Part shown: positions 6,818 through 34,930 of the stretch, one piece after another | How the letters are laid out: each line of letters begins with the position of its first letter | How positions within the stretch are numbered: the stretch's first letter is position 1 | Source: Pseudomonadota bacterium | GTDB taxonomy: Bacteria > Pseudomonadota > Alphaproteobacteria > CACIAM-22H2 | Direction of reading: 5' to 3' | Length of the DNA: 35,520 nt | Assembly (NCBI GenBank): GCA_016201015.1 | Contig: JACQDQ010000344.1 | Coordinates: 1 to 35,520 of the forward strand | Position numbers and translations under genes: made by a program | Notes under the pieces: generated by a model | The model's database searches: none | Told to the model about the DNA's origin: nothing | The model's input: the letters and a program-made list of their open reading frames with translations, nothing else

Positions 6818-7492
6818 ATGCCGCGCGCGCCCGCGGCGCTTAAGCCCAAGGACGCGTTTGTGGACTGGTCGATCCTCTGGCAGTACCGCGGGGCTTTCTG
6901 GAGCGGCTTCACGGTCACAGTGTGGTTGTCCGCAGCATGCATCGTCGGCAGCACCATCGTCGGGTTGCTCGCCGGATGCCTAGGCTCTCTGCCGTCTTTC
7001 TTCCTGCGGCGGCTCATCTCCGCGTACACAGAGTTGCTGCGGAACATTCCGCTGGTCGTAAAACTGTTCTTCTTCTATTTCGTGCTCGGTATACCAGGAA
7101 TTCCGGCTGCATTGCTCGCGCTCACTTTACATCAGAGCGCCTATGTCGCCGACGTCGTCACGGCCGGAATCCGCTCGATAGCGCGCGGCCAAGTTGATGC
7201 CGGTCTTTCACTCGGCCATGGCTACTGGCAGATCTTTCGGTACCTGATCATCCCGCAGATGCTGCGCATTGTCATTCCGCCGATGACGTCGCAATACGTG
7301 GCCATCATCAAGCATTCCTCGGTCGTGGGGCTGGTGGCGGTGCAGGACCTCACCTTCCAGACGCAAGAAATCAATGTCGCGACCTTTCGAGGTTTCGAGG
7401 CCGCGACAGCGACCACCGTGCTGTACGGCCTGCTCGCCCTGGCGATGATCGCCGCTATGGCGGCGTTGGAAAAGAGGTTCGCCTGGCGATGA
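6818..7492 (+). CDS. Polar amino acid ABC transporter permease 1
   Basis: A 224-residue inner-membrane permease of the HisM/GlnP type. It has several long hydrophobic segments, the ELLRNIPLVVKLFFFYF motif near residue 70, and the ATPase-coupling EAA loop VDAGLSLGHGYWQIFRYLIIPQ near 128-149. TELLRNIPL is characteristic of amino-acid-type permeases. The ribosome-binding site of the chosen ATG is weak. The gene ends in an ATGA overlap with the next permease, so both are translationally coupled. Confidence 0.9.
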   Translation: MPRAPAALKPKDAFVDWSILWQYRGAFWSGFTVTVWLSAACIVGSTIVGLLAGCLGSLPSFFLRRLISAYTELLRNIPLVVKLFFFYFVLGIPGIPAALLALTLHQSAYVADVVTAGIRSIARGQVDAGLSLGHGYWQIFRYLIIPQMLRIVIPPMTSQYVAIIKHSSVVGLVAVQDLTFQTQEINVATFRGFEAATATTVLYGLLALAMIAAMAALEKRFAWR

Positions 7493-19908: not shown

Positions 19909-21027
19909 TCATTCTGCCGGCCTCATCTCGTATTGGCGCCCTGAAGCCCAGCGCGCCAGCTCGGCAGGCGACATCTCGCCCGCGAAGGTCGCGAGCACCT
20001 TCTCCCCCACCAGCGGCCCGAACTTGAACATCTGCCCGTCACAGTTGGTGACGAAGAGGCAGCGCCCGGACTTTTCGATGACGAAGCGTCGCTGATCATT
20101 CATCACGTAGTAGCCGACCTGCATCCGCAGCGGCACATAGTCGTCGGCGTCGCGCAGGATTGGCCGAAACGCGTCGATGACCTGCTGCCCCTCAGCAATG
20201 TCCCAGTCGAAGCCGGCCTGTGGCGTGGCGTGGCGGCGATGCCCGCCATAGCCGAACTTGAGTCCGGTTCCGGACAGCGGCGGCAGCGTGTAGCCACTCC
20301 AATTCCCGACGGTGACCAGCGCCGGCGCGCTTTGCCACAGGACGCGATGCCGTTCCGGCGGCTCGACGTAACAGACGGCTTGCCGCCACGTTGGCAGCTG
20401 GCCATACCGATTGGGCGCCAGCGCGGGCAGCCACGCCCCGACGCTGACCACGACCAAATCGCCAACCAGCCGCTCGCCGGTCGCGGTCTGCACCGTGCCG
20501 CCCTCCTCGACGGCGACAGCGGACGTGTGCGGCAAAATACGCACACCCTTGGCCGCGCACAGCCTGGCGAGGTCGGTCACGATACGATCGGCGAATAGAG
20601 GGCCGGCCGGGTGGGCAACGATGCCGCGGCTGCCCCGCGGCAGCGTCAGATGGCTGCACAGCTCCTCCAGCGCCGCGCCGGTAACGGCGCTGTACGGGAT
20701 TCTAAGCCGGCGGAACACCGTCTCCGTCTGGTCAGCGTAGTCTCCCGGTTCCGTGGAGATCGCGATTGCGCCGCTGTCGACGAAGTGGCGCACGCCGAGA
20801 TCGCGCCAGAGCCGCTCCCACGACGGGAAGGCCTCGACCACCATCCGCGCGTAGCCCTGCGCCGCCCCGTAGTGCGGACGGATCATCCGGTGTTGGTCGA
20901 ACGAGGCAGCGTGCCGGCTCGGCACGTCATCCCGGTCGAGCAACGTAACGTCATGGCCGCGCAGGGCTGCAGAGCGCGCGACGCTCAGCCCGATGATGCC
21001 CGCGCCGACGACGATGATGCGCGCCAT
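19909..21027 (-). CDS. FAD-dependent oxidoreductase, sarcosine-oxidase-like (DAO family)
   Basis: A 372-residue DAO-family flavoprotein resembling monomeric sarcosine oxidase and N-methyltryptophan oxidase, which demethylate secondary amino acids. The FAD motif IIVVGAGIIGLSVARSAALRG is at 4-24 and HAASFDQHRMIRPHYG near 44-59 parallels the substrate-site segment of sarcosine oxidase. The C-terminal NCDGQMFKFGPLVGEKV near 335-350 matches the family's GFSGHGFKFAPVIGE. The cysteine that covalently holds FAD in monomeric sarcosine oxidase is not seen: the C-x-Y position reads VGY. The ATG at 21027 has AAGG upstream; a longer frame adds only eight non-conserved residues. It is the last gene of the operon, 96 bases after the GNAT gene. 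Confidence 0.82.
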   Translation of the reverse strand: MARIIVVGAGIIGLSVARSAALRGHDVTLLDRDDVPSRHAASFDQHRMIRPHYGAAQGYARMVVEAFPSWERLWRDLGVRHFVDSGAIAISTEPGDYADQTETVFRRLRIPYSAVTGAALEELCSHLTLPRGSRGIVAHPAGPLFADRIVTDLARLCAAKGVRILPHTSAVAVEEGGTVQTATGERLVGDLVVVSVGAWLPALAPNRYGQLPTWRQAVCYVEPPERHRVLWQSAPALVTVGNWSGYTLPPLSGTGLKFGYGGHRRHATPQAGFDWDIAEGQQVIDAFRPILRDADDYVPLRMQVGYYVMNDQRRFVIEKSGRCLFVTNCDGQMFKFGPLVGEKVLATFAGEMSPAELARWASGRQYEMRPAE

Positions 21028-21123
21028 GGCTTCGCCTTGAACTCCCTCCAACTCATGCCGAGCTTGTCACGCGTCGCCGGACAGGCCAGGCCGTTCTCCG
21101 CGGCGGTCATACGCGACTGCGAT

Positions 21124-21996
21124 CTAGCCCACCGCCTGAAGCGCCAACGCGAAGCGGTACGGCATCCTTGCGCTCTCTGGCCAGGCGCCGCGGATCATTG
21201 TTGTCACCGTTCCGACCGGCGCCAATCCTGCCTGTGTCAGCCAGCCGGCGATGGCGACGCCGCCCGCCGGGATGTCGATCCGCAATAGACCGGGACCCGT
21301 GCCGTCCACCGCCGCTGCAATCAGTGCAATCGCGTCATTCTCCGCCGCCGCTATCACCGGGCCGATCATCTCGCCGCGACCGAACTCACGACGGATGGCA
21401 AACCCGGTCAGGCCCGCTTCGCTTTCGACGACCCAAGCCTTGCCGATCGCGAGGAGCCGCATGATCAGCCCGGCCCGCGGCATGCCGAAGGCGGCGGCGT
21501 CCAACGCAACAAGGGCCTCATGATCGGCAATTCCAACCCGCCGGATGTGCGCCGCTGACGCGGCCGGAATGCTCGTCACTCGGCCCTGATGCTGCCGCAC
21601 CTGCCCGGCGCGGCGAAAGCCGAGGCGATCGTAGAGCGCCAGGCCCGCGGCGGTCGCATTCAGCATGAGCGCGGTCTGTCCGGCGTCTTCGAGCAGCGCC
21701 ATCATCAGGCGCCGACCGATGCCGCCGCCCTGATAGGCGGGCGACACCAGCACCATGCCGACAGTCCCGCCCGCCTCGCCGAAGCGCCACCACATCGCCA
21801 TGCCGATGATCTGCCCAAGCGGGTCGACGGCGACGAAGCCGCCGCCGAGATCGACCAGCATGCGACAATCCGCTAGCCGGTGCGGCCACGAAACCTCGAC
21901 GACGAGTCGGTGAATCGCCTCGAGGTCCGCCGCCTGTATCGGGCGCAACGCTGTCCCCCCGCGCGCCGCGGTGCGCGGCCCTGGATCGCCAGCCAT
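21124..21996 (-). CDS. GNAT-family N-acetyltransferase with two GNAT-like halves
   Basis: A 290-residue protein. The N-terminal GNAT domain covers about residues 16-140, with acetyl-CoA-binding VGMVLVSPAYQGGGIGRRLM near 78-97 and LALYDRLGFRRAG near 119-131. The second half (about 150-285) resembles the C-terminal acetyltransferase-like module of YitH-type proteins. These enzymes acetylate small amines or amino acids. It lies seven bases after the DgcA-like demethylase and may detoxify or trap an amine released in the same pathway; that role is inferred from position. Confidence 0.82.
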   Translation of the reverse strand: MAGDPGPRTAARGGTALRPIQAADLEAIHRLVVEVSWPHRLADCRMLVDLGGGFVAVDPLGQIIGMAMWWRFGEAGGTVGMVLVSPAYQGGGIGRRLMMALLEDAGQTALMLNATAAGLALYDRLGFRRAGQVRQHQGRVTSIPAASAAHIRRVGIADHEALVALDAAAFGMPRAGLIMRLLAIGKAWVVESEAGLTGFAIRREFGRGEMIGPVIAAAENDAIALIAAAVDGTGPGLLRIDIPAGGVAIAGWLTQAGLAPVGTVTTMIRGAWPESARMPYRFALALQAVG

Positions 21997-22003
21997 GTCG
22001 TCC

Positions 22004-24070
22004 TCACAACGCCATGCAGAGACGCAGCGCGTCGTAGATCGCGGCGTGCACGCTGCGGCTGCTCACCGCATCGCCGATGCGGTGAAGCTCGAACCGGCCC
22101 CCCTCGGGCTCGGCGGCAAGCTGGGCGCGGCCGGCGAGCAGCGCGTCGATGTCGGTCACCCCGTCATTCACGGAGCGCGCGCGCAGCGCATCGAAGGCCC
22201 CGCTCATCGGCACGGTGCCGTTCTCGATCACCACCTGCGGCGCGGTCAACTCCATCTCCTTTCCGGTGAGCTCGTGGCGGAACATCGCGACCAGCCGGTT
22301 GCCGCGCGGCTGAACGCGCTCGAGCTGGTGGTCGATGGTTATGGGCACGCCATGCTCCGCGAATCGCTTCCGGTAGACGACGCGCGCGTTGTACTCCATC
22401 TCAGCGCCCATGTTGTCGTCAAGCGTGACGAACTGCACCCCGTGTCCCTGCTCGGCGAGATGCAGTGCGCAGGAGACGGCCTGGTGGCGGCCGGTGCCAT
22501 CATAGACGATCACCTCATCCTTTGCCGCAACCGTCCCCGACAGCACGTCCCACACCGTGGCGCAATGCTCGGCGCCCTCCAGCCACTCCGTGTCGGGCAG
22601 GCCGCCGGTCGCGATGATGACGGTATCCGGCTGCTCGCGCAGCACATCGTCGGCCTCGGCATAGGTATCGAGCCGGACATCGACGCCGAGCCGCGCCAGC
22701 TCGGCGGCGCGCCAGTCGACGATGGCGATGAGGTCGCGCCGCCAGGTCGCGCGCACCGCGAGCAGGAGCTGGCCGCCGAGCCGGCTTGCAGCCTCGAACA
22801 GCACCACCTTGTGCCCGCGCTCGGCGGCAACGCGCGCGGCCTCCAGCCCGCCGGGCCCGCCGCCGACCACGACGACCTTGCGGCCAGGCTTCGCCGAGCG
22901 CGCGACGATCTGCGGCAGGATCTGCTCGCGCCCGGTCGCCGGGTTGTGGATGCAGGCCAGCTTCTTGTACATGCAGTGCGAGGCGCCGACGCACGGACGA
23001 ATACGATCCTCCTCGCCGCGCATCAGCTTGTTGACGATCTGCGGATCGGCCATGTGGGCACGCGTCATCGCCACCATGTCGAGCAGGTTCTCGGCGATCG
23101 CGTGGCGCGCAGTCGCGATGTCGGCGATGCGCGCGGCGTGGAACACCGGCAGCTTGGTCTCGCGCTTGAAGGCACCGACCGTCTTGAGGAACGGCGCCAA
23201 GGGCTGCGACATACCCGGCATGTTGTGCTCGGCGAGCGCCAGGTCGGTGTCCATCCGGCCGAAGATCGCATTGAAGAAATCGATATGGCCCGCGCGTTCG
23301 AACAGCCGCGCGAGGCGCACGCATTCCTCGAAGCCGATGCCCTCGTCGATGTCCTCGTCGACGACGAAGCGGATGCCGACCAGGAAGTCGTCACCGACCC
23401 GCCTGCGGATCGTTTCGTGCACCATCAACCCGAAGCGCGCGCGGTTCTCGATCGAGCCGCCGAACTCGTCGGTGCGGCGGTTGGTGCGCGGCGAGAGGAA
23501 CTGGCCGATCAGGTGGCCGCCGGTCACGGTCTCGACGCCGTCGAGCCCGCCTTCCTTGCAGCGCAACGCGGCCGCGGCGTAGTCGTCGATGATGCGGTCG
23601 ATGTCGTGGCGGTCCATCTCACGCGGGATGTCGCGGTGACGCCGCTCGCGGATCGCGGTTGGCGCAAGCGTCGGCAGCCAGTTCGCGGCCGCCGACGTCG
23701 CGCGCCGCCCGAGATGCGAGATCTGGCACATAATCGCGGCGCCATGACCATGGATGCGCGTGGAGAAGCTCTGCAGATCGGGGATGATCGCGTCGCTCGA
23801 GACATCGATCTGGCCGCCGCCCCAACTCGAATCCGGTGCCACCATCGACGACCCACCGAACATGGTGAGCGCGATGCCGCCCTTCGCCTTCTCCTCGTGG
23901 TAGCGCTGGTAGCGCTCCTTTGGCATCCCGCCCTCGTCGATGGTGGCGGCGTGACTCGTGCTCATGATGCGGTTGCGCAAGGTCAGCCGCTTGATGCGCA
24001 GCGGCTGCAGCAGCGGATCGCGCGCGCGCGGCGCTTTGTCGATCAGGTCGGTTGCGACGGTGTTGGGCAT
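22004..24070 (-). CDS. NADH:flavin oxidoreductase, trimethylamine-dehydrogenase family, DgcA-like demethylase
   Basis: A 688-residue three-part flavoenzyme. An old-yellow-enzyme FMN barrel fills about 15-350 (TLRNRIMSTSHA, EEKAKGGIALTMFGGSS, RTDEFGGSIENRARF), an Fe-S segment lies at 360-373, and a pyridine-nucleotide-type FAD domain starts with VVVVGGGPGGLEAARVAAERG at about 399-419. Overall layout and the ending IGDAV...HAAIYDALRLC resemble DgcA, which demethylates dimethylglycine, and related N-methylproline demethylases. Only three cysteines (360, 366, 373) are in the Fe-S segment; the second Cys of trimethylamine dehydrogenase's C-x2-C is Ala363. An ATG at 24082 overlaps the upstream stop (ATGA) and is an alternative start; 24070 has GAGAGAGA upstream. 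Confidence 0.85.
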   Translation of the reverse strand: MPNTVATDLIDKAPRARDPLLQPLRIKRLTLRNRIMSTSHAATIDEGGMPKERYQRYHEEKAKGGIALTMFGGSSMVAPDSSWGGGQIDVSSDAIIPDLQSFSTRIHGHGAAIMCQISHLGRRATSAAANWLPTLAPTAIRERRHRDIPREMDRHDIDRIIDDYAAAALRCKEGGLDGVETVTGGHLIGQFLSPRTNRRTDEFGGSIENRARFGLMVHETIRRRVGDDFLVGIRFVVDEDIDEGIGFEECVRLARLFERAGHIDFFNAIFGRMDTDLALAEHNMPGMSQPLAPFLKTVGAFKRETKLPVFHAARIADIATARHAIAENLLDMVAMTRAHMADPQIVNKLMRGEEDRIRPCVGASHCMYKKLACIHNPATGREQILPQIVARSAKPGRKVVVVGGGPGGLEAARVAAERGHKVVLFEAASRLGGQLLLAVRATWRRDLIAIVDWRAAELARLGVDVRLDTYAEADDVLREQPDTVIIATGGLPDTEWLEGAEHCATVWDVLSGTVAAKDEVIVYDGTGRHQAVSCALHLAEQGHGVQFVTLDDNMGAEMEYNARVVYRKRFAEHGVPITIDHQLERVQPRGNRLVAMFRHELTGKEMELTAPQVVIENGTVPMSGAFDALRARSVNDGVTDIDALLAGRAQLAAEPEGGRFELHRIGDAVSSRSVHAAIYDALRLCMAL

Positions 24071-24078
24071 AGTCTCTC

Positions 24079-25950
24079 TCATAGGGCTCGTTTGACCACT
24101 CGCTTGAGCGGGAGGATCGCAGCGGACACCGACCCGTGCTTGGACTGCAGCGCCACCAGCTCCTGTTCGGTGCGGTGGCAGCGGATATCGGAGCCCTTGG
24201 CAAAACGGCGGATCGGCGGCGGCGCGGCGTCGCACAGGCCCGGCGCGCGCGCGGCGCAGCGCGAGATGAAGGCGCAAAGATCGGGACTGCCGGGAAACGA
24301 AAACCGGCTGCGCGCTTCGGCGAGGCGGGTCTCATCGATGCTGTCCAGCCAGCCGGGCCGCAGCTCCGGCACCGACGCGGCCAGCAGGTCGGCATAGGGA
24401 TGCTGCGGCGCCTGCATCACCGCCTGACCCGTGCCGCGCTCCATCACCTGGCCGGCGTAGAGGACCATCACCTCGTCGCAGACCGCGCGCACGGTCTTGA
24501 GATCATGACTGATGAACATGAGCGCGAGGCCGAGTTCGCTCCTCAGCTCCGCGAGCAAGTCGAGAATCGCGGCGCCGACAACTGTGTCGAGAGAGGCGGT
24601 GACCTCGTCGCACAGCAGCAGCGCCGGCTCCGCCGCGAGCGCGCGCGCGAGATTGACGCGCGTCTTCTGCCCGCCGGACAGCTCCGTCGGCAGCCGATCG
24701 AGCAATGACGCCGGCAGTCGCACCAGATCGAGCAGGCGGCGCACCCGGCGCCGCTGCTCGCTCCGCGACAAGCCGTGGTAGAACGCCAGCGGGCGGCTGA
24801 GGATGCGCTCCACGCTGTGCGCCGGATTGAGCGCCGTGTCCGCGGCCTGAAAGACGATCTGGATGCGGCGCAGCTCCTCGCGGCCGCGTGAGGCGAGCGC
24901 CGGCGCCAAGCGTTCGCCGTCCAGCCGCATCATGCCGGATGTCGCCGGCAGCAGCCCGGCGATGACGCGCGCGAGCGTGCTCTTGCCCGATCCCGATTCT
25001 CCGATTACGCCCAGCGCCGAGCCGGCACGGATCTCGAGATCCACGTCGTGCAACACTGGTGCCGCGGGACGGCCCTGCCAGGTCGCGCCATAGCCAGCGA
25101 CCAGCCCGCGCACCTCGAGCAGCGGTGCCACCGCCACGTCCCGCGGGGCCGCGGGCGGCTGCGGCTTCGGCGCGTGGGCGGCGAGCAGGCTCTGCGTATA
25201 GGGATCGGCCGGGCCGCTGAGGATTTGCGCGGTCGCCCCGATCTCCTGGATCGCCCCGTCGCGCAGCACGACGATGCGGTCGGCGACCTGCGCGACCACG
25301 GCAAGATCGTGCGAGACGTAGATGGCCGTCGTCTTGCGCTCGCGCACCGCCTCGCGGAAGGCGCGCAGCACCTCGACCTGGGTGGTGACGTCGAGCGCGG
25401 TGGTCGGCTCGTCGAACACTACCAGGTCGGGATCAGTCATCAGAGCCATCGCGGCCATCAGCCGCTGCAATTGACCGCCCGAGACCTGATGGGGAAACCG
25501 CGCGCCGATGCGATCGGGCTCGGGCAGCGCCAGCGCGCGGAACAGGTCGCGCGCCTTCGCCTCCGCATTGGCACGCGACATCAGCCCGCGCATGCGCACG
25601 CCCTCAATCACCTGGTCCATCAGGCGCTGCGATGGATTGAAGGCGGCCGCAGCGCTCTGCGCGACATAGGCGACCTGGCCGCCGCGCAGCCGCGCGAGCT
25701 CGGCCGGCGCGAGCGCGCGCACGTCCGCCCCGCCGACCCGGATGCCGCCGTCGGCGATGCGACAGCCGCGGCGGGCGTAGCCCAACAGCGACAGTGCGAT
25801 CGTGGTCTTGCCGGAGCCGGACTCGCCGATCAGCGCCAGCACCTCGCCGCGGGCGACGGTAAAGCCAATGTCTCGGACGATGTCCGTCTCGGCGCCGCGG
25901 TCATTCGTGGCGGTGACGCGCAGGCCGGAGACTTCGACCAGCGGCGTCAT
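24079..25950 (-). CDS. Peptide/opine-type ABC transporter, fused double ATP-binding protein (DppD-DppF fusion)
   Basis: A 623-residue protein with two complete nucleotide-binding domains, as in YejF-type fusions. Domain 1 has Walker A GESGSGKT near 42-49, VSGGQLQRLMAAMAL and DLVVFDEPTTALDV. Domain 2, from about residue 290, has GESGSGKST, LSGGQKTRVNLARAL and ALLLCDEVTASLD. The C-terminal oligopeptide-type tail carries four cysteines (LCAFISRCAARAPGLC, then DIRCHR), a pattern usual in DppD/DppF proteins. The ATG overlaps the stop of the permease gene and the stop overlaps a possible start of the next gene. It energises uptake through the two permeases upstream. Confidence 0.92.
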   Translation of the reverse strand: MTPLVEVSGLRVTATNDRGAETDIVRDIGFTVARGEVLALIGESGSGKTTIALSLLGYARRGCRIADGGIRVGGADVRALAPAELARLRGGQVAYVAQSAAAAFNPSQRLMDQVIEGVRMRGLMSRANAEAKARDLFRALALPEPDRIGARFPHQVSGGQLQRLMAAMALMTDPDLVVFDEPTTALDVTTQVEVLRAFREAVRERKTTAIYVSHDLAVVAQVADRIVVLRDGAIQEIGATAQILSGPADPYTQSLLAAHAPKPQPPAAPRDVAVAPLLEVRGLVAGYGATWQGRPAAPVLHDVDLEIRAGSALGVIGESGSGKSTLARVIAGLLPATSGMMRLDGERLAPALASRGREELRRIQIVFQAADTALNPAHSVERILSRPLAFYHGLSRSEQRRRVRRLLDLVRLPASLLDRLPTELSGGQKTRVNLARALAAEPALLLCDEVTASLDTVVGAAILDLLAELRSELGLALMFISHDLKTVRAVCDEVMVLYAGQVMERGTGQAVMQAPQHPYADLLAASVPELRPGWLDSIDETRLAEARSRFSFPGSPDLCAFISRCAARAPGLCDAAPPPIRRFAKGSDIRCHRTEQELVALQSKHGSVSAAILPLKRVVKRAL

Positions 25951-26786
25951 CGAACGATCTCGTGGTTGCTGCCGGACAGGCCGTCGATAAGCAGGGTGAT
26001 ACCGATGGTGAGGATGGCGATCGCGACCGCGGGCACGACCACCGCGGGGGCCGCCTCGTAGATGCCGACGATGTTCTCGCGCACCAACGCGCCCCAATCG
26101 GCATTGGGCGGCTGAATGCCGAGGCCGAGAAAGCTGAGCCCGCTCAGCAGCAACACGACAAAGACGAAGCGCAGGCCGAGGTCCGTCATCACTGGGAAGA
26201 GCATATTGGGCAGAATCTCCTCGCGCAGGATGTATGCCGTGCCCTCCCCCCGCGCGCGCGCGACCTGGATGAAATCCATGGCATTGATGTCGAGCGCCAG
26301 CGCGCGCGAGATGCGGAACGAGCCCGGAACGTAGCTTACCGCCGCCATCAGCACGAGCACCGGCAGCGAGGTGCCGAACGCCGCCACCACGACCAGCGCG
26401 AACATCAGATGCGGGATCGAGATGAGCGCGTCCGCCGCACGGCTGATCAGCGCATCGATCCAGCCGCGCCGCACCGCCGCCAGCAGGCCGAGCGTCGTGC
26501 CGGCAAGGCAGGCGAGCACGGTCGCCAGGAGCGCCACGCCCACAGTGTAGCGCGCGCCGTGCAGGATGCGGCTCAGCATGTCGCGGCCGAGATAGTCGGT
26601 GCCGAGCGGATAGGCGGTGCTCATCGGCGCGAAGGGACCGGCATTGACGACGTATCCGGCGCTGTATGGCGCGAGATACGGCCCGAACGCGGCCAGCGTG
26701 GCCCAGAACAGAACCAGCGCGATGCCGATCTGCACGGCGGCTGGAATGCGGCGTCGCGGCGCGGTGATCGGGGCAGCGGCGCTCAT
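25947..26786 (-). CDS. Peptide/opine-type ABC transporter permease (DppC-like)
   Basis: A 279-residue membrane permease of DppC type. A first hydrophobic segment at about 15-35 is followed by the YPLGTDYLGRDMLSRILHGAR motif near 55-75 that marks DppC/OppC proteins, and the EAA loop FIQVARARGEGTAYILREEILPN near 174-197. ATGA overlaps join it to the DppB-like gene before it and the fused ATPase after it. The segment GLGIQPPNADWGALVREN near 225 is also typical. Confidence 0.92.
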   Translation of the reverse strand: MSAAAPITAPRRRIPAAVQIGIALVLFWATLAAFGPYLAPYSAGYVVNAGPFAPMSTAYPLGTDYLGRDMLSRILHGARYTVGVALLATVLACLAGTTLGLLAAVRRGWIDALISRAADALISIPHLMFALVVVAAFGTSLPVLVLMAAVSYVPGSFRISRALALDINAMDFIQVARARGEGTAYILREEILPNMLFPVMTDLGLRFVFVVLLLSGLSFLGLGIQPPNADWGALVRENIVGIYEAAPAVVVPAVAIAILTIGITLLIDGLSGSNHEIVR

Positions 26787-27730
26787 CGCACGCGCAGCCG
26801 CGGGTTGGAGAGGATCGAGCAGAGGTCGGCCGCCAGCACCAGGATCATGAAGGCGGCGCAGAAGATCATCGCGCAGGCCTGGACCAAAGGCATATCGCGC
26901 GTCTCGACTGCGTCGACCGCTAGCTTGGCGAGGCCGGGGTAGCTGAAGATCACCTCGACGATGATCACGCCGCCGAGCAGCGAGGAGAGGTTGAGAGCGA
27001 CCGCGTTGGCGATCGGGCCGGCGGCGTTGGGCAGCGCGTGGCGCAGCACCAGCCGCGCTGGTCGCACGCCCTTGAGCCGCGCCATCTCGATATAGGAGGA
27101 ATCGAGCACGCCGAGCAGCGCCGCACGCGTCATCCTCACCATCTGCGCCATGATGCCGAAGCTCAAAGTCAGCACCGGCAGCGCGAGGGTGCGCAGCGCC
27201 CCGCCCAGCGAGTCGACCACAGGTGTCGCCATGGCGGAAGCCCAGCGCAGCTGGACCGCGAACAGGATCACGCCGATCGTCGCCAGCAGGAATTCGGGCA
27301 CCGAGACCAGCGACACCGCGGTGATGTTGGTCACGCGGTCATAGGCCGTGCCGCGCCAGATCGCCGAGGTGACGCCGAGCAGCAAGGCCAGCGGCACCGC
27401 GACCGCCGCGGTGAGCGCCGCCAGGAACAGCGAGTTGGTGAGGCGCGGACCGATCAGCTGGCCGATCGGCATGCGGTTGATCAACGAGATGCCGGGATCG
27501 CCGGTCAGGAGGCCGGCGAGCCAGCGTAGGTAGCGTTCGGGCGCGGGTAGATCGAGGCCGAGCGCCTGGCGCAGGCCCGCCACCGCCTCGGGCGAGGCGG
27601 ACTGGCCGAGAATCGCCTCGGTCGCGTCCCCAGGCAGGATGCTGGCGCCGACGAACACGACCACCGAGACAACGAGCAAAGTCAGCAGGCCGCCGCACAC
27701 CCGCCGGAGGATCATCCCCAGCATCAGCAT
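26783..27730 (-). CDS. Peptide/opine-type ABC transporter permease (DppB-like)
   Basis: A 315-residue permease of DppB type. The start LMLGMILRRVCGGLLTLLVVSVVVF gives the normal first membrane segment, followed by ILPGDATEAILGQSASPEAVAGLRQALGLDLP, the standard periplasmic region. The EAA loop reads YIEMARLKGVRPARLVLRHALPNA near 205-228, and VEVIFSYPGLAKLAVDAVETRDMP near 255-278 is conserved. ATG 27730 is chosen; ATGs at 27724 and 27715 are possible, with GGGG before the last. The frame is open far upstream, but that part is antisense-like to the binding-protein gene. Confidence 0.9.
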   Translation of the reverse strand: MLMLGMILRRVCGGLLTLLVVSVVVFVGASILPGDATEAILGQSASPEAVAGLRQALGLDLPAPERYLRWLAGLLTGDPGISLINRMPIGQLIGPRLTNSLFLAALTAAVAVPLALLLGVTSAIWRGTAYDRVTNITAVSLVSVPEFLLATIGVILFAVQLRWASAMATPVVDSLGGALRTLALPVLTLSFGIMAQMVRMTRAALLGVLDSSYIEMARLKGVRPARLVLRHALPNAAGPIANAVALNLSSLLGGVIIVEVIFSYPGLAKLAVDAVETRDMPLVQACAMIFCAAFMILVLAADLCSILSNPRLRVR

Positions 27731-27762
27731 GTGCGGCGCCCGCTTCTCAATCGGCCGCTGGC

Positions 27763-29379
27763 TCAGCTCTCGAGCCAGACATTCTCGGAATAGGAGTAGC
27801 CCATCAAACCCCCGGTCGGAATCGCGCGCAGCCCCTTCAGCTTGGTCGTATGGGCATCGAGGATGCTGAAGAACACCGGGATGCCGATGCCGCACTCGTT
27901 GTGCACCAGGGTCTGCATCTCGCCGTACATCTGCCGGCGCCGCGCATCGTCGGTTTCCGCCCGCGCCGTGACCAGCAGCTGGTCGAAGCGCTCGCTGCGC
28001 CACGCACTCTCGTTCCAGTTCGAATCGGACTTGAAGAACAGCGTGAACAGGACATCGGCGCTGGGCCGTGGGTTGATGCTGCCGAAAGTCAGCGGGAACT
28101 TCATCCACACGTTCGACCAATAGCCGTCGGCCGGCATGCGCTTGACGTCGATGTTCATGCCGATCCCCTGCCCTGCCTGCTGCAGCAGCACCGCCTGGTC
28201 GAGCATGGTGCTGCTGGCCATGGTGTGAATCGGGATCGGCGTGTTGGCGAATCCGGAACGTTGGAGATGAAATCGCGCCTTCTCCGGGTCGAACGGCCGC
28301 TGCGCTAGGCCGGGAAAGAAGAAGCGATTCGTCGGGTCGATCGGCTGGTCATTTGCTACCACCGCATACCCCTGGAACACCGCACTCCTCATCTGCTCGC
28401 GGTCTTGCAGATGCTTGAGCGCCAAGACGAGGTCCGGATTGCGGCTCGGATCGGCGTCCTTCCGCATCACGACGTCGTTGTAGCCGCCGGCTTTGGTCTC
28501 GAAGACGGCATAGCCGCTCGCTGTCTGCACGCGGCGCGCCAGGCGTGGGCTGATCGACGCCGCGACGTGGACATCGCCCGACAACAGCGCGTTGAGCCGC
28601 GCGGTCTCATCGGGAATGCCGATCAGCTCGATCTCGTCGAGATAGGGACGGCCGGACTTCCAATAGTCCGGATTGCGCACTGCGATCGACTTGACGCCGG
28701 GCATGAATTCCTGGCAGCGATAGGGGCCGGTACCAACCGCCTTGCTGAAATCGGTCGTGCCGTCCTTGATGATCAGGAAATGCGGCGTGCCGAGCACCAC
28801 TGGCAGGTCGGCATTGGGCGAGGCGAGCGCGATTCGCACCTCGTGCGTTCCGGTCGCGGTGATTTCCTCCATGGGCAATGCCAGTGCGCGCGCCGCCGAC
28901 CCGGTCTTGGGATCCTTGTGGCGCGCGAGCGAATAGACGACGTCGACCGCCGTGAGCGGCGAGCCATCATGGAACTTGACGCCTTGGCGGATCTTGAACG
29001 TCCAGACCGTGGCGCGCTCGTTGGCGAACGATTCGGCGAGCTCGGGCTGCGGCGTCAGGCTCTGATCCAGCCGCGTCAGGCCGTTGTAGAACGTGAAGCA
29101 GCGCGTGTAGTCGGTCTGGTTGTTCTGCTTCGCCGGATCGACCGTATCCGCGGTGGAGGAGGTCTGCGACGCCACCCGAATCCGCCCGCCGCGCTGCGGC
29201 GTCTGCGCCAAGGCGCGGCTCGCGCTAGCAACGATTGTGCTGGCCATGGCCGTCGCCATGCCGGCGGAGCTCAGCCAGCGGATCAATTGGCGCCGACTCG
29301 CCCCACGCCTTAAGGCAGTCTCGATCAGCGCCGTGTCGGAGAATTCCGGCAGGATGGCCGGATAACGCTTCGTAGTCAT
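27763..29379 (-). CDS. ABC transporter substrate-binding protein, family 5 (peptide/opine/nickel type)
   Basis: A 538-residue extracellular receptor of family 5 (DppA/OppA-like). The N-terminus has an unusual 27-residue leader before a twin-arginine-type signal (SRRQLI at 28-33, hydrophobic part, cleavage near RALAQ at about 60). The mature protein has PELAESFANERATVWTFKIRQGVKFHDGSPLTAVDVVYSL, the classic family segment, then GTGPYRCQEFMPG, NPDYWKSGRPYLDEIELI and PFDPEKARFHLQRSGF. AGGGGAG lies upstream of the ATG at 29379. It is the first gene of the large minus operon and diverges from a LysR regulator. Family 5 receptors bind peptides, opines, betaines or heme; here the downstream demethylases favour an N-methylated amino acid. 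Confidence 0.9.
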   Translation of the reverse strand: MTTKRYPAILPEFSDTALIETALRRGASRRQLIRWLSSAGMATAMASTIVASASRALAQTPQRGGRIRVASQTSSTADTVDPAKQNNQTDYTRCFTFYNGLTRLDQSLTPQPELAESFANERATVWTFKIRQGVKFHDGSPLTAVDVVYSLARHKDPKTGSAARALALPMEEITATGTHEVRIALASPNADLPVVLGTPHFLIIKDGTTDFSKAVGTGPYRCQEFMPGVKSIAVRNPDYWKSGRPYLDEIELIGIPDETARLNALLSGDVHVAASISPRLARRVQTASGYAVFETKAGGYNDVVMRKDADPSRNPDLVLALKHLQDREQMRSAVFQGYAVVANDQPIDPTNRFFFPGLAQRPFDPEKARFHLQRSGFANTPIPIHTMASSTMLDQAVLLQQAGQGIGMNIDVKRMPADGYWSNVWMKFPLTFGSINPRPSADVLFTLFFKSDSNWNESAWRSERFDQLLVTARAETDDARRRQMYGEMQTLVHNECGIGIPVFFSILDAHTTKLKGLRAIPTGGLMGYSYSENVWLES

Positions 29380-29514
29380 GCCGCCAGTACTCCCCTGTTT
29401 TGAAGGTGGCGACGACCGGCCGAACCGGCGCCGCGGCACCGTTCTTGCTCTTCGATGGGCGAATATCATCTACCCCTGAACGACAAAGTCATCGCCAGAA
29501 ATCCTGGAAGGGGT

Positions 29515-29529
29515 ATACGCTGGACGTAT
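29515..29529. promoter_or_regulatory. Candidate LysR binding site ATACGCTGGACGTAT overlapping the lysR start
   Basis: A perfect inverted repeat of five-base arms around a five-base centre contains the T-N11-A form recognised by LysR-type regulators. It lies in the 148-base divergent region between the family 5 binding-protein gene and the LysR gene and overlaps the LysR ATG at 29528. Binding here would suit autoregulation. If the true start is further downstream the site would lie in the leader. Confidence 0.4.
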
Positions 29530-30463
29530 GGCCGGACTGGGAAGGCTGATACCGTCGTTGCGGAGCCTGATGATCTTCGAGGCCGTCGCGCGGTCCGGGA
29601 GCTGCAGCGCGGCCGCGCGCGAGTTCAACGTCACCCAGCCCTCGGCCAGCCGCAATATCGCGCAACTCGAAGCGCATCTCGGGACGGCGCTATTTATCCG
29701 CAGCGCGGCCGGTATGGAGCTGACTCGCGAAGGCCAGCTTCTCTTCGCCGCTCTGAGCGATGGCTTCCAGAGGGTGGAGGCGGCCATTCATGACATCGCG
29801 GCGTTGCGCATGCGCAAGGATTTGGTGGAGTTGTCGCTCTCGACCGCCTTCGTCACGCACTGGCTGGTGCCGCGCCTTCCGGCATTCCATCGGGCCTTTC
29901 CCTCGGTCGACCTGCGCTTCCAGCTCATTCCCAGCAACCTGCGCGGCGGACCCGGGCAGGTCGACCTTGCCATGCGCATGAAGGGCGAGCACGACGCGGA
30001 TTACCACAGTTGGCATTTTGCACCCGAGCTCATCGTCCCGGTGTGCAGCCCGAGCTACCTGGCCCAGCATGGGCTCCTGCATGGCACGCTGGGGGAGGCC
30101 GGCCACACGCTTCTGCACCTCTCAGATGCGTATTTCGATCCCCACACTCTGTGGGGCGCGTTCGACCGGCCGCTGTCGCTCCAAGCCCTGCTCGAATTCT
30201 CCGACTACGCCGTCGTGTTGCAGGCGGCGATGCGTGGCGCCGGCATCGCGCCCGGCTGGATTTCGGTCGTCTCCCGCGCGCTTGGCGATGGAGCGCTGGT
30301 GCCGGCTTCGCCGAGGCGGATACGCACGGACAAGCATTTCCACCTCCTCGCGTCGCGCGGCAGGCCGTTGCGGGATATCGTCGTTGCCATCTGCGAATGG
30401 ATGATCGAGCAGATGCAGGAGGATATGGAGCGCGTCGCCGCGTTGCTCAATCCCACGGTGTGA
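29528..30463 (+). CDS. LysR-family transcriptional regulator (GcvA-like)
   Basis: A 311-residue LysR-type regulator. The helix-turn-helix spans about 10-70 (LRSLMIFEAVARSGSCSAAAREFNVTQPSASRNIAQLEAHLG), with the common ELTREGQLLF following. The effector domain (about 95-300) has STAFVTHWLVPRLPAFHRAFPSVDLRF and DLAMRMKGEHD, like the GcvA group. It is transcribed away from the operon 29379-19909 and very likely activates it in response to the imported compound. GGAAGGGG precedes the ATG at a rather long distance, so the start is not certain. Confidence 0.92.
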   Translation: MAGLGRLIPSLRSLMIFEAVARSGSCSAAAREFNVTQPSASRNIAQLEAHLGTALFIRSAAGMELTREGQLLFAALSDGFQRVEAAIHDIAALRMRKDLVELSLSTAFVTHWLVPRLPAFHRAFPSVDLRFQLIPSNLRGGPGQVDLAMRMKGEHDADYHSWHFAPELIVPVCSPSYLAQHGLLHGTLGEAGHTLLHLSDAYFDPHTLWGAFDRPLSLQALLEFSDYAVVLQAAMRGAGIAPGWISVVSRALGDGALVPASPRRIRTDKHFHLLASRGRPLRDIVVAICEWMIEQMQEDMERVAALLNPTV

Positions 30464-30600: not shown

Positions 30601-31962
30601 CTACTCCGCCGCGGCGCGTTTCGGTGCGCGGTGGAGCGTTTCCATCTCGCGGCGTAGGCGCACCGCGTCCTGCGTCTCGTCCACCCGCACGTCCGCCCAG
30701 CGGACGATGCCGCCCGCCGTCACCGGGTTGACCAGCTTCACCTTGTGGGCGAGGCCCAGCGGCAAGGCGCCTGTGTCGAGACTGGCCGCCGCCGGCATCA
30801 GCCGCCCAACCACCGTGTAGCCGCCCTCGCCGTCGAGCACCTCGCCGGGTTTGAGGTCGCGCTTGGCGGTGGCCACAGCGTCGGCACGGAACCCATCGGC
30901 GCAGCCGGTCGGCTCGCCGCGCAAGCCGACGGCGGCGACGCTGATGCCAAGCTCAAGCCCGATCAAATGCCAGCGCTTGTAGAGCGCGGCGTAGCGGCTG
31001 CTCGGGTCAGTCACCACGCCGTATTCGGTGAAACAGCGGCGCACATACTCGCTGTCGCCCTCGAAGACAACGAACACGCCCCAGCGGATGTGATGCGGGA
31101 TCGGCCGCCCGTCGCGCTCCAGCGACGACAGCACCTCAACCTGGCCCTTGGCGTGAAGCTGGCCGCCCTCGGATTTCGGCCGGCAGACGAAGGGCAGATC
31201 GTCGAGCGAGCACGGCGGGAATTCGAGCCCGTTGGGCGGCGGCACCAGGCCGGTCGCGTTGCAGACGGCGGTGGTCTCGATCGCCGGCTTCGATCCGTCG
31301 AGGAAGGAGTTGAACATCTGCGGATTGAGGCCGCCGAGCTTCGCCTGCTCCGGCGTCAGGCCGTAATAGCCCCACACCGTTTCCGGCGTCGACTGCGCGT
31401 AATGCGGCAGCCATTTATGACCGCGCCCGGCGGCGACCACGTCGAAGCCGGCGGCGCGCGACCAATCGACGAGATCGCAGATCAACGCCGGCTGGTCGCC
31501 ATAGGCCAGGCTGTAGACAACCCCAGCCTCGGCCGCCTTGCGGGCGAGCAACGGGCCGCAGAATGCGTCGGCCTCGACCGTCACCATCACCACATGCTTT
31601 TTCGCCGTGAAGGCTTTCAGCGCATGCGTCACGGCGGAAGGTGGATGCCCGGTCGATTCGATGACGACATCGAGGCCAGGGTGAGCGATCAGCGCGCCGG
31701 CATCGTCGCCGACATGCGTGCCGCCGGTCTTCTGCGCCTCGTCGAGGCTGCGCGCGGCGATGCGCGCGGCGTCCCAGCCGGTGCGCGTCAGTGCCTCCCT
31801 GGCGCGCGGAACCGACAGATCGGCAACGCCGAGCAGATGGATACCCGGAGTGCGCCGCGCCTGGGCGAGATACATGGTCGCGAACTTGCCGGCACCGATC
31901 AGGCCGACGCGCAGCGGCTTGCCGGCGGCCTGGCGTTCGAGCAGCTTGCGGTGAAGGTTCAT
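30601..31962 (-). CDS. NAD(P)-dependent oxidoreductase with C-terminal SAF domain (homoserine-dehydrogenase-like)
   Basis: A 453-residue protein. A Rossmann domain at the N-terminus has VGLIGAGKFATMYLAQ at about 19-34 and DVVIESTGHPPSAVTHALKAFTAKKHVVMV near 98-127. The middle region contains GDQPALICDLVDWSRAAGFDVVAAGRGHKW, a signature of predicted homoserine-dehydrogenase-like proteins. The C-terminal part (about 355-430) looks like a SAF domain, with AKRDLKPGEVLDGEGGYTVVGRLMPAA, found in sugar-acid dehydratases and related enzymes. CGGAGA precedes the ATG. It follows the dioxygenase gene after a 146-base gap filled by repeats. No member of this group has a function I can assign; it may act on the hydroxylated product of the dioxygenase. 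Confidence 0.8.
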   Translation of the reverse strand: MNLHRKLLERQAAGKPLRVGLIGAGKFATMYLAQARRTPGIHLLGVADLSVPRAREALTRTGWDAARIAARSLDEAQKTGGTHVGDDAGALIAHPGLDVVIESTGHPPSAVTHALKAFTAKKHVVMVTVEADAFCGPLLARKAAEAGVVYSLAYGDQPALICDLVDWSRAAGFDVVAAGRGHKWLPHYAQSTPETVWGYYGLTPEQAKLGGLNPQMFNSFLDGSKPAIETTAVCNATGLVPPPNGLEFPPCSLDDLPFVCRPKSEGGQLHAKGQVEVLSSLERDGRPIPHHIRWGVFVVFEGDSEYVRRCFTEYGVVTDPSSRYAALYKRWHLIGLELGISVAAVGLRGEPTGCADGFRADAVATAKRDLKPGEVLDGEGGYTVVGRLMPAAASLDTGALPLGLAHKVKLVNPVTAGGIVRWADVRVDETQDAVRLRREMETLHRAPKRAAAE

Positions 31963-31984
31963 TCTCCGGTCTCCGTTCCGCTGG

Positions 31985-32097
31985 CCTCATGGTTCGAGAC
32001 GGCCGCTAACGCGGCCTCCTCACCATGAAGTCAAAACTTTTTACCCCACCCTGAGGAGCCGTGACGCGTAGGCGACGCGGCGTCTCGAAGGGTGAGA
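31985..32097. repeat. Two REP-like palindromic repeats in inverted orientation
   Basis: Two hairpin-forming elements fill the gap between the dioxygenase and oxidoreductase genes. Copy 1 (31985-32030) begins CCTCATGGTTCGAGAC and ends TCCTCACCATGAAG. Copy 2 (about 32045-32097) begins CCACCCTGAGGAGCC and ends CGTCTCGAAGGGTGAG, the same element reversed. Each has a variable GC-rich central stem. Intergenic palindromes of the form CATCCTGAGGAG...GTCTCGAAGGATG are, to my knowledge, common in Bradyrhizobium and related genera. They could act as mRNA-end hairpins between the two genes. Confidence 0.75.
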
Positions 32098-32108
32098 CGC
32101 TGACGGCC

Positions 32109-32915
32109 CTACTCCGCCGCGCTGCGACGCCCGCGCGCGTCGCGGATCAAGCAGTCGTCCGGCAGCGTCTCGATCGGCGTGAATTCGTGATTTGCTATCC
32201 AGGTCGGCCGCTTGAAGCGGCGGATGGCGTTGTCGCAACGGTTGAGCGACAGATAGACGATCCAGCGTGACCACGGCGTCAGGTTGGAGCTCGAGGCGTG
32301 TACCATGTTGCCGTGAAACAGCAGCATCGATCCCGGCGGCCCCTTCGGCGCAACAATCCCGCCCTCGGCCACCAGCCGCGTGATCGTCTCGTTGTTGATC
32401 GTCCACAGCGGATAGCTGGTCGTAGTCACGTCATGGCCGGCCTCAAGCCGCCCCTTGCGGTGGCTGCGTGGGATGAACATCAGCGGGCCATTGAACTCGT
32501 TGGCCTCGGCCAGGAACAGCGCAATGTTCATAGCGCGTGGGTTGGGCATGTCGTCGTCTTGGTGCCAGGTCGCATAGTCCTGGTGCCACTGCCATACGGC
32601 CCCGTCGAACGCCGCCTTGGCGTTGATCTTGAACTGGTGCATGTAAAGCTTGTCGGAGCCAAGCAGTTGCGCGCCCGGTTCCAAGAGCCGCGGATGTCGC
32701 GCCAGTTTTTCGTAGACCGGATTCCACGTCTGCACATAGAAGGCCGAGCGCGGCGACGTGCTGCCCTTCTCGCGGATCACCTCCTGGCGCTGCTCGGCGA
32801 AGATGCCGGGCACCGCGCCGTTGAGGACGTCCATCTCCTCTATCGTGAAGACATTCGGCAGGAAGAGATAGCCTTCTTCCTCGAACTGGCGGATTTGCTC
32901 CGGTGTCAGCTTCAT
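32109..32915 (-). CDS. Fe(II)/2-oxoglutarate dioxygenase, phytanoyl-CoA dioxygenase family (EctD-like)
   Basis: A 268-residue non-haem iron dioxygenase of the PhyH family that should hydroxylate a small molecule while converting 2-oxoglutarate to succinate. The iron triad is His111 and Asp113 in WQWHQDYATWHQDD, plus His206 in GNMVHASSSNLTPWSRW. FNGPLMFIPRSHRKG at 141-155 and the WHQDDDMP segment parallel ectoine hydroxylase EctD, so a free amino acid or osmolyte-like substrate is more likely than a CoA ester. GGAGAAGG precedes the ATG at 32915; the frame extends to 32951 but overlaps the GntR stop. No ectoine synthesis genes are nearby. It is the middle gene of a three-gene operon. Confidence 0.88.
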   Translation of the reverse strand: MKLTPEQIRQFEEEGYLFLPNVFTIEEMDVLNGAVPGIFAEQRQEVIREKGSTSPRSAFYVQTWNPVYEKLARHPRLLEPGAQLLGSDKLYMHQFKINAKAAFDGAVWQWHQDYATWHQDDDMPNPRAMNIALFLAEANEFNGPLMFIPRSHRKGRLEAGHDVTTTSYPLWTINNETITRLVAEGGIVAPKGPPGSMLLFHGNMVHASSSNLTPWSRWIVYLSLNRCDNAIRRFKRPTWIANHEFTPIETLPDDCLIRDARGRRSAAE

Positions 32916-32947
32916 CGGCGCCTTCTCCACACTTTGCGAAGTTGACT

Positions 32948-33631
32948 TCAAGCGGATTGCCTCACGACGTCAACGTGACGGTGCATCAACTCCGCGGTAA
33001 GCATCCGTGCCGCCGCCTCCGCGTGCGCGCGTGCCCGGGACTCGGCCTGCGTTGCATCGCCTATGATGACGGCGGCGAGAATAGCCGCATGCTCGTCCCA
33101 AATATGCTCGACGGGCCGATCGGAGCGCAGAACTGCCCCCATCATCCGCCGTATGTGTTGCCAGTGCAGAGACGCGGTCTCCGCAATCAGCGGATTGCCC
33201 GACAAGTCGTAGATGAAGCGATGAAAATCGATATCGGCGCGAATCAACCAATCAACGTCGCGCGCGGCTGCCGCCGCACGACCAGCCGCTATTAGTTGCT
33301 CACCGCGGACGGCCGCATCGCCGGAGCGGTGCGCCGCGGCGCTGTGCGCTGCCGTGGCGTCGAGCGCCGCGCGCACTTGATAAAGTTGCTCAACGAAGAC
33401 GGGATCGAGCGGCGCCACGGCCAGACCGCGGCGGCCGGAATCCCGTACGAATCCCTGTTTCTTGAGCAACAGGAGCGCTTGCAACACGGGCTGTCGCGAA
33501 ACGGAAAGGGTCGTGGCAAGACCGTCCTGCGTGATCCGCTCACCCGGTGCCAGGCGACCAGCGCAAATCGCGTCCTGTATCGCCGCATACACTCGATCGA
33601 CGAGCTGGGGGTGCACTTCCAATTTTTGCAA
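32948..33631 (-). CDS. GntR-family regulator, FCD subfamily (TTG start)
   Basis: A 227-residue regulator. The winged helix-turn-helix is at about 8-75 (LVDRVYAAIQDAICAGRLAPGERI, then LATTLSVSRQPVLQALLLLKKQGFV), and the FCD domain at 80-210 keeps the metal-site pattern with Asp133/His137, His181 and His203. The start is placed at TTG 33631 because AAGAGAG lies nine bases upstream, the protein then begins next to the DNA-binding domain, and the promoter and operator at 33655-33691 lie just upstream. A longer frame to 33730 would run through that promoter. It is the first gene of an operon with the dioxygenase 32 bases downstream and probably represses it together with its own gene. Confidence 0.88.
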   Translation of the reverse strand: MQKLEVHPQLVDRVYAAIQDAICAGRLAPGERITQDGLATTLSVSRQPVLQALLLLKKQGFVRDSGRRGLAVAPLDPVFVEQLYQVRAALDATAAHSAAAHRSGDAAVRGEQLIAAGRAAAAARDVDWLIRADIDFHRFIYDLSGNPLIAETASLHWQHIRRMMGAVLRSDRPVEHIWDEHAAILAAVIIGDATQAESRARAHAEAAARMLTAELMHRHVDVVRQSA

Positions 33632-33654
33632 TGACTTAACTCTCTTTCGGAACG

Positions 33655-33673
33655 TTCGTATACCGTATACGAA
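33655..33673. promoter_or_regulatory. 19-bp GntR operator TTCGTATACcGTATACGAA
   Basis: Nine-base arms form a perfect inverted repeat around one central base. The GTATAC cores fit the TNGTATACNA-like sites bound by FCD-type GntR regulators. It lies 24 bases upstream of the GntR start and overlaps the -10 element of the promoter, the standard geometry for autorepression. Confidence 0.8.
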
Positions 33674-33691
33674 TTTCCGTCCTCGCGTCAA
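33664..33691 (-). promoter_or_regulatory. Sigma70-type promoter of the GntR-dioxygenase operon
   Basis: Reading the minus strand, TTGACG (33691-33686) and TATACG (33669-33664) are separated by 16 bases. The -10 box sits inside the 19-base palindrome, so regulator binding would block polymerase. The predicted start point near 33657 gives a leader of about 26 bases before the TTG start. Confidence 0.65.
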
Positions 33692-34255
33692 GGGCAAGCA
33701 TCGGCCGCGCAGCCGACCAACAATCCGCAAGGCTTCGAGCGCCGCAAAACTCCTGACTCCGCCGCCCGCGCACCAATGCCGAACTCGACGGCGAGGCGCT
33801 CGAAGCGCTGGCGGCGCCCGAGCCGGCCGGCCGCAAAGATTAAGTGCGTGCGGATACCGTTGTAGTAGTTGGCTTACTTCCTCAGGATGCGTCGCAGGTG
33901 AGCGGCACTGACGACGATCAGGTGGTCAAGGCAATCCCGGCGGTTCGATCCAATCAAACGCTCTGCATGCGCGTTGTACCAAGCAGAGCGTGGCGCGGTC
34001 GGTATCGGATGCCCATCGATCGGGCGCGACACTGGAATGGTGCACCATACGACGTGTCGCGATCACGTATCAGAAAGCGCGGAGCCGAGTCCCACGGGAC
34101 CGCTTCCGAGATCTGGCGCGCTGGCCACCCCGTCGTTGGGTGGCCGTCACACCGATCGACACCAGCTTACGGCGGGCATGCCGCAGGATAACGAAGACGT
34201 TTGCTCCACCCCAAGTCGATGCAGGCATGACGAAGCATCGATTGCGTATCCAAAC
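33692..34255. other. Decayed intergenic region
   Basis: No intact gene is visible. The main content is the transposase relic at 33836-34202 (own entry). The part at 33692-33835 has no recognised coding sequence. Confidence 0.6.
33836..34202 (-). pseudogene. Insertion-sequence transposase relic (integrase-core, DDE type)
   Basis: Three minus-strand reading frames give consecutive pieces of an integrase-core transposase. Piece 1 (about 34202-34150) reads FVILRHARRKLVSIGVTA. Piece 2 (about 34137-34000) reads WPARQISEAVPWDSAPRFLI, then RDRDTSYGAPFQCRARSMGI. Piece 3 (33999-33877) reads TAPRSAWYNAHAERLIGS, then RRDCLDHLIVVSAAHLRRIL, followed by an in-frame TAA at 33876-33874 where a Tyr is expected, after which NYYNGIRTHL continues. 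The catalytic Asp (DRD) and Glu (AHAERL) are recognisable. Frameshifts lie near 34140 and 33997. The N-terminal half is missing. It resembles IS481-like elements, and no terminal repeats could be defined. Confidence 0.8.
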
Positions 34256-34930
34256 TCAGGCCGCAAAGACGCCGCCGTTGACGTCGATCGTCGCGGCCGT
34301 GACGTAGGACGCCTCATTACTGACGAGAAACATGACCGACGCCGCGACATCGCCCGGGACGCCGACACGCCGCACCGGTATGGTCGCCGCCGCCTCGCGT
34401 GCTGTCTCTGAGTCGGCCGGCGCGGTCATGTTCGAGCTGATCCAGCCGGGCGCAAGGCAATTGACCGTGATGCCGTATGGCGCCAGATCGACCGCCAGGG
34501 CGCGCGTCAGTCCGGCAAGGCCGGCTTTGGCGGCGGCGTAATGCGGCCCGGCAATCCTGGGGGTCGTGCGTCCGGCGATTGAGCCAATGTTGACGATGCG
34601 ACCCCAGCCGCCCGCCATCATGACCGGCACCACGGCGCGGCTGCACAGCCAGGCACTGGTCAGATTGATGTCGATCACCCACCGCCATTCGTCGAGCTCG
34701 ATTTGGCCGCCCCATGACTCCGGCGACCGTCGCTTGGGCGAGAGGCAGGCGTTGTTGACAAGGATATCGATCCGGTCGATTTGCCGATGCACATCGTCGA
34801 AGAAATCGATTACGGCAGTCGGATCGGTGAGCCGGCCGACAACTCGATCGCTGGCGGCGCATTCAGCCGGCGCGGCCGCTAGGTGCTCGCGGCTGGTGCC
34901 ACAGAAGGCCACGCGTCCACCGGCAGTCAA
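34256..34930 (-). pseudogene. Short-chain dehydrogenase/reductase, 5'-truncated
   Basis: About 224 codons match the classical SDR fold from the second beta strand onward: GRVAFCGTSREHL, DILVNNA near 55-61, INIGSIAG-like NIGSIAG with the catalytic Ser near 113, HYAAAKAGLAGLTRALAVDL with Tyr and Lys near 127-131, NCLAPGWISSNM and the C-terminal ATIDVNGGVFAA. The first 30 or so residues, including the TGxxxGIG cofactor motif, are absent. Upstream in frame there is only an unrelated short stretch and then a TGA, and the only possible starts are a TTG without a proper ribosome-binding site. The enzyme should be unable to bind NAD(P) and is best seen as a broken gene next to the transposase relic. 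Confidence 0.8.

Follow-up and report, generated by a model that had tools for sequence, protein, structure and literature searches.

The window, the whole 35,520-nt stretch of DNA analyzed here, carries a GntR-type regulator gene, two enzyme genes behind it, and an operator-like element in front of it (Table 1). The regulator combines an N-terminal GntR winged helix-turn-helix domain (PF00392, 44.6 bits against a cut-off of 27) with a C-terminal FCD domain (PF07729, 76.4 bits against a cut-off of 24.3). The residues D133, H137, H181, and H203, which we take to be the metal ligands of the FCD family, are kept in 21 of 21 full-length regulator rows, a count that leaves out the truncated proteins of L007 and L009. 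The recognition-helix arginine R46 is kept in 23 of 23 rows. The initial annotation recognised the regulator and the site before it and missed the two enzyme genes. For the PhyH-type dioxygenase, the in-frame ATG at 32915 appears likelier as the start than that of the longest reading frame, and the best solved relatives of its product are chains named as phytanoyl-CoA dioxygenase (7dzz, E 1e-58), leucine hydroxylase (5nch, 3e-48), and ectoine hydroxylase (4mhr, 1.5e-40). The 146-nt gap that separates the PhyH gene from the DXR-II-like (DRL) gene (31963-32108, minus strand) holds a TTGAC, so the third gene may have a promoter of its own there.

Table 1 Features of the regulator locus in the window.
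Feature	Coordinates	Strand	Remarks
GntR/FCD-domain regulator	32948..33631	minus	TTG start 33631, 227 aa
19-bp perfect inverted repeat, proposed operator	33655..33673		two self-complementary GTATAC cores 7 bp apart
TTGACG, proposed -35 element	33686..33691	minus	within CTTGAC
TATACG, candidate -10 box inside the palindrome	33664..33669	minus	weak, 4/6, without the last T
AAGAGAG, plausible ribosome-binding site	33640..33646	minus	8 nt before TTG 33631 (33631-33629)
PhyH-type dioxygenase, longest ORF	32109..32951	minus	PF05721; overlaps regulator end by 4 nt
DXR-II-like (DRL) oxidoreductase, apparently DLO2-like, third gene	30601..31962	minus	PF21135, E 3.5e-54

The regulator, PhyH, and DRL genes stand together in 14 of the 19 genomes with flanking sequence (among the 22 relatives, G377, G086, and G029 came without longer flanks). 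Of the five that depart from this arrangement, four belong to one genus and the fifth is G149. In two loci read as examples, L034 and L046, the regulator lies near a thiamine-diphosphate enzyme. At L034 (2243-9346), a related regulator is clustered with genes for a methylmalonyl-CoA mutase, a B12-binding protein, an AMP-ligase, and a TPP-enzyme, which suggests, from this one genome, that operators of this type may also act in a different pathway. The neighborhood of the trio in the window (19909-30463) holds genes for a peptide-type ABC transporter, an FMN/FAD oxidoreductase, a GNAT protein, a DAO-type oxidase, and a LysR regulator. A decayed integrase-type transposase remnant (33877-34062, minus strand) lies between an SDR gene and the regulator promoter; its rve_3 match is below the cut-off (E 3e-4), and the stretch is interrupted by stops.

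The protein of the third gene matches the Brucella DXR-II structure 3upy over residues 3-427 of 453 (E 1.2e-54). According to the available part of the published comparison of DXR-II and its relatives (PMC3847144), Thr229 and Gly121 are marks of DXR-II, and Pro, Ser, or Ala at position 229 has been reported for DLO2. Counted along the 3upy alignment, the protein from the window differs from DXR-II in carrying Pro at the Thr229 place and Ala at the Gly121 place, and all 14 relatives examined differ at position 229 too, nine with Pro and five with Ser. By this residue rule at positions 229 and 121, the third gene would be DLO2-like. Its residue at position 250 is Glu, which fits neither the His of DXR-II nor the hydrophobic residues of the DXR-II relatives in the same partial account. 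A search for DXR-I (PF02670) gave no match in the genome of the window (96% complete) and a match in 10 of 14 control genomes. Three DRL-family genes were found in this genome, namely the window copy and those on contigs C109 (L051) and C457 (L052). We rejected the window gene as the DXR of the genome, since it has GSKP at the Thr229 place while the two other copies have GSKT. By eye, the C457 copy lies beside an IspG-like reading frame and the C109 copy beside a dehydrogenase E1-like one. Given the three DRL genes, the missing DXR-I match, and the surroundings of the C457 and C109 copies, isoprenoid synthesis in this genome probably uses DXR-II.

The element in front of the regulator reads TTCGTATACCGTATACGAA on the plus strand and consists of the arms TTCGTATAC-C-GTATACGAA, which fill 33655-33673 and form an inverted repeat that is perfect about one base, as found by script and by eye. 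On the minus strand, TTGACG (33691-33686) is followed after a spacer of 16 by TATACG (33669-33664). The palindrome agrees base for base with the initial annotation, which had likewise given the spacing of 16, reproduced here by script, and the placement of AAGAGAG before TTG 33631. Its further description of a textbook -10 box within the palindrome was borne out in part: the position is promoter-like, while TATACG lacks the final T, a promoter scan of 33400-34300 requiring that T found no promoter, and the spacer is not conserved. We therefore demoted the exact promoter TTGACG-16-TATACG to a possible one, the hexamer being weak and its spacing variable among relatives. Compared with the S. meliloti promoter query CTTGAC-N17-CTATAT given in the accessible portion of PMC2573895, the CTTGAC half fits here and the second half fits poorly. 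The site stands between TTGAC and the start codon, a position that would place it on the promoter of the regulator, with the exact -10 as a candidate.

The longest reading frame of the regulator begins at TTG 33730, 99 bases upstream of TTG 33631, and the GntR domain match begins at residue 11 when TTG 33631 is taken as the start. The codon aligned with TTG 33631 is ATG, GTG, or TTG in 20 of 23 loci; L020, L024, and L025 instead have an in-frame start two codons upstream. Further in-frame start codons occur upstream in L005, L008, and L023, and another in-frame ATG lies inside the site itself in L017 and L018. The revised start at TTG 33631, in place of TTG 33730, had already been put forward by the initial annotation and is well supported, though not proved, by this alignment. 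A loose Shine-Dalgarno-like tetramer was found in 14 of the 23 loci. In L017, L018, L022, and L023, a gap of 2-5 nt separates the site from the aligned start and TTGAC lies upstream, so the transcripts of these four loci may be leaderless.

As an anonymous palindrome, the element is unremarkable in 35 kb. A search for repeats with arms of at least 9 and a loop of at most 3 gave 5 rows for the window, from 3 places, while 100 dinucleotide shuffles averaged 1.6 and reached 7 at most; for the 400-bp stretch around the palindrome, 20 of 2000 shuffles contained one such repeat. The palindrome alone was thus rejected as evidence, since similar repeats arise by chance, and the case rests on the relatives. 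With up to 3 mismatches allowed, the 19-mer has a single occurrence in the window and none in 100 shuffles. A genome-wide search for the 19-base site, proposed beforehand as a check, found a single copy in the genome of the window (5.33 Mb, 96% complete). The 13-bp core is also single there at up to 1 mismatch, and the reversed control pattern also matched 1 place, which puts the chance level at about one per genome at that looseness. Lone GTATAC hexamers occur in the window at 7089, 10538, and 29513, with no second doubled site; the last (29513-29518) lies in a 58-bp gap between a solute-binding-protein gene and a LysR gene, and no second core adjoins it. We rejected a wider regulon or global role, as neither the window nor the genome yielded a further doubled site, and the single site argues for a local switch.

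The comparison with relatives was made at two depths. Within the family, the regulator is present in 4 of 23 genomes at E 1e-40 or better, and the 19-bp site (up to 3 mismatches) was found in the same 4 of 23, directly upstream of the regulator each time. Besides the window, the two nearest relatives, G007 and G002, have the site without mismatch (the G002 regulator gene is split over two contigs) and G001 has it with 2 mismatches, and the reversed control pattern matched in 1 of the 23. Pairwise promoter alignments show the site intact among diverged flanks. Wider searches covered 96 and 385 genomes, of which 8 and 19 matched at E 1e-30 and 1e-50, respectively. The promoter set comprises the 23 loci with a readable promoter, window included. 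Excluded from it were L001 and L047-L050, which duplicate other places; L010, the promoterless C-terminal half of the split G002 gene; and L011, whose contig appears identical to that of L003.

Each of these loci has a GWATWC-N-GWATWC element upstream of the start at a distance of 2-46 nt, the gaps in L005 and L009 depending on which of the tied pattern placements is chosen. Scored against GWATWCNGWATWC, the best match in the promoter region reaches 12/12 in 12 loci, 11/12 in 10, and 10/12 in one, and among 11,500 shuffles 0.26% reach 11 and none reaches 12; the score of L021 is reached by 18 of 500 shuffles. The pattern was formed after the loci had been seen, so the 19-mer of the window itself was used as a less circular probe. 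With it, no other 125-bp stretch of the locus scores as high as the promoter region in 17 of the 22 other loci; the five failures are L008, L009, and L013, which have GAATTC cores, and L016 and L021. A far-upstream control carries little weight, with 3 usable loci scoring 8, 8, and 7.

In 15 of the 23 loci, the 30 nt before the site contain TTGAC; elsewhere in these loci, 38 of 4920 overlapping windows do so (0.8%). Of the eight loci that lack it, one is cut off by its contig. From TTGAC to the core, the spacer measures 16 in the window. The two nearest relatives, which have the same palindrome, both show 14, and the remaining twelve of the fifteen loci with a close TTGAC range from 13 to 31; values of 18-20 are found in L005, L012, L014, L017, and L018. 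The enrichment supports TTGAC as a -35-like element, and the promoter comparison supports the site as a conserved operator-like element before the GntR/FCD regulator.

The core of the element occurs in two dialects, as L006, L008, L009, L013, and L026 have GAATTC and not GTATAC. Position 50 of the recognition helix is V, Q, or S in the GAATTC group (5 rows) and L, I, G, or H in the GTATAC group (18 rows), where rows were counted regardless of relatedness, and the core groups were assigned by us, including the placement of L016 and L021 with their imperfect cores in the GTATAC group. One could go further and describe an alphaproteobacterial FCD clade with a doubled, 7-bp-spaced GWATWCn operator bound by two side-by-side dimers, two dialects set by residue 50, and an unstudied PhyH-DLO2 pathway; such a combined picture is unlikely to hold.

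These observations lead us to consider it very probable that the 19-bp element is the operator of the adjoining GntR/FCD regulator, through which the regulator would shut off the gene that encodes it along with the downstream enzyme genes. By analogy with the family, a regulator dimer would bind the two GTATAC half-elements and cover the promoter in the interval that separates the TTGAC box from the start codon. Transcription would thereby be blocked for the regulator gene, the PhyH dioxygenase gene, and probably also the DLO2-like oxidoreductase gene. Binding of a small metabolite to the FCD domain, near D133, H137, H181, and H203, would release the regulator, so that the genes would open when their substrate is present; this ligand is probably carboxylate-like or amino-acid-like. 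What is observed here comprises the sequence and its conservation, the joint occurrence of site and regulator within the family, the conserved start codon, and the conserved gene order. Autorepression is a sound inference, and binding, co-transcription, the transcription start, the exact -10, and the effector are predicted with it. The module would then be an ordinary local autoregulatory switch, made credible by the comparison with relatives.

The main competing arrangement reads the operator as a short row of tandem 7-bp GTATACn units occupied by two adjacent dimers, in the manner of NanR on its GGTATA repeats. Each GTATAC is self-complementary in its own right and agrees with the GntR pattern GT-N2-AC, Atu1419 is described as binding a single ATGTATACAT in the available part of its report (PMC7797058), and two units at 7-bp spacing score 10/12 or better in 23 of 23 loci. 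Some loci have a partial third unit in register, the average score out of 6 being 2.9 at offset -7 and 3.1 at offset +14; this unit is weak, and neighboring offsets score nearly as high (1.2-2.7 at the others). In the nearest clade, however, TTC/GAA flanking the cores prolongs the symmetry, in keeping with one 19-bp palindrome. NanR offers a precedent for side-by-side dimers on repeats, yet the excerpted account (PMC8012715) traces its cooperativity to a 32-residue N-terminal extension, and here the GntR match starts at residue 11 if TTG 33631 is the start. We regard the array as possible, if rather improbable.

Activation in place of repression from the same site has a parallel among FCD regulators in CitO, which binds upstream of the cit promoters and induces them, as stated in the accessible part of PMC4746285. 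In the 23 loci, between 2 and 46 nt separate the end of the site from the start codon, and in the 15 with a close TTGAC the site lies downstream of it; a site so placed suits blocking better than recruiting polymerase, which leaves activation very unlikely. A chance repeat or an RNA or terminator element would account for a palindrome of a kind that does arise by chance in a 35-kb window; it would leave unexplained the position-specific conservation among relatives with diverged flanks and the co-occurrence with the regulator gene, and we consider it extremely improbable.

The analysis supports a corrected start for the regulator gene, provides a testable candidate operator for regulators found in several families of the class, and ties the regulator to a conserved gene trio whose third enzyme is a relative of an isoprenoid enzyme. 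The DXR-II relatives were termed uncharacterised in 2013 in the part available of PMC3847144, and an inducer for this promoter would point directly to the substrate of the PhyH-DLO2 pathway. Literature searches for the doubled GTATAC core in four spellings returned no bacterial-regulator paper by title, and no paper was found that combines GntR, phytanoyl-CoA dioxygenase, homoserine dehydrogenase, and operon. Specialists may find the PhyH-DLO2-like pair and the doubled operator, with its GTATAC and GAATTC dialects, most worth examining.

The FadR-subfamily survey of Suvorova et al. 2015 (PMC4494728), as far as its available text goes, describes GT-Nx-AC palindromes, an FCD partner domain, and a recognition-helix arginine, all of which are seen here, and the GTATAC cores, being GT-N2-AC, match its operator form NyGTNxACNy. 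The survey gives TKGT/ACMA as common, mostly with 3 nt between GT and AC, unlike the core TCGTATAC, which has 2 nt. A gap of 2 nt is reported there for several groups, which makes it a usual exception and not a ground for exclusion. The window differs from that subfamily in that its GT-AT-AC cores are doubled at 7 bp, and Leu50 takes the place of FadR Arg-49 in a by-eye alignment. E. coli NanR is likewise an FCD-type GntR protein with closely spaced short repeats as its operator; unlike the window system, it uses GGTATA repeats, three dimers, an N-terminal extension, and sialic acid as effector, according to the portion of PMC8012715 at hand. The closest system in print, judged from the accessible sections of PMC7797058, is Atu1419 of Agrobacterium fabrum, a GntR/FCD repressor whose 10-bp site has a GTATAC core and lies over the -10 box of two target genes and between the -10 and -35 of its own gene. 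The window regulator is a distant relative of its structure (6z74, E 2e-6) and shares with it the FCD-type GntR architecture, the GTATAC core, and probably a site at the promoter; Atu1419 has a single GTATAC in each of two sites, which lie 190 bp apart and are joined by tetramer looping, whereas the window has two cores 7 bp apart.
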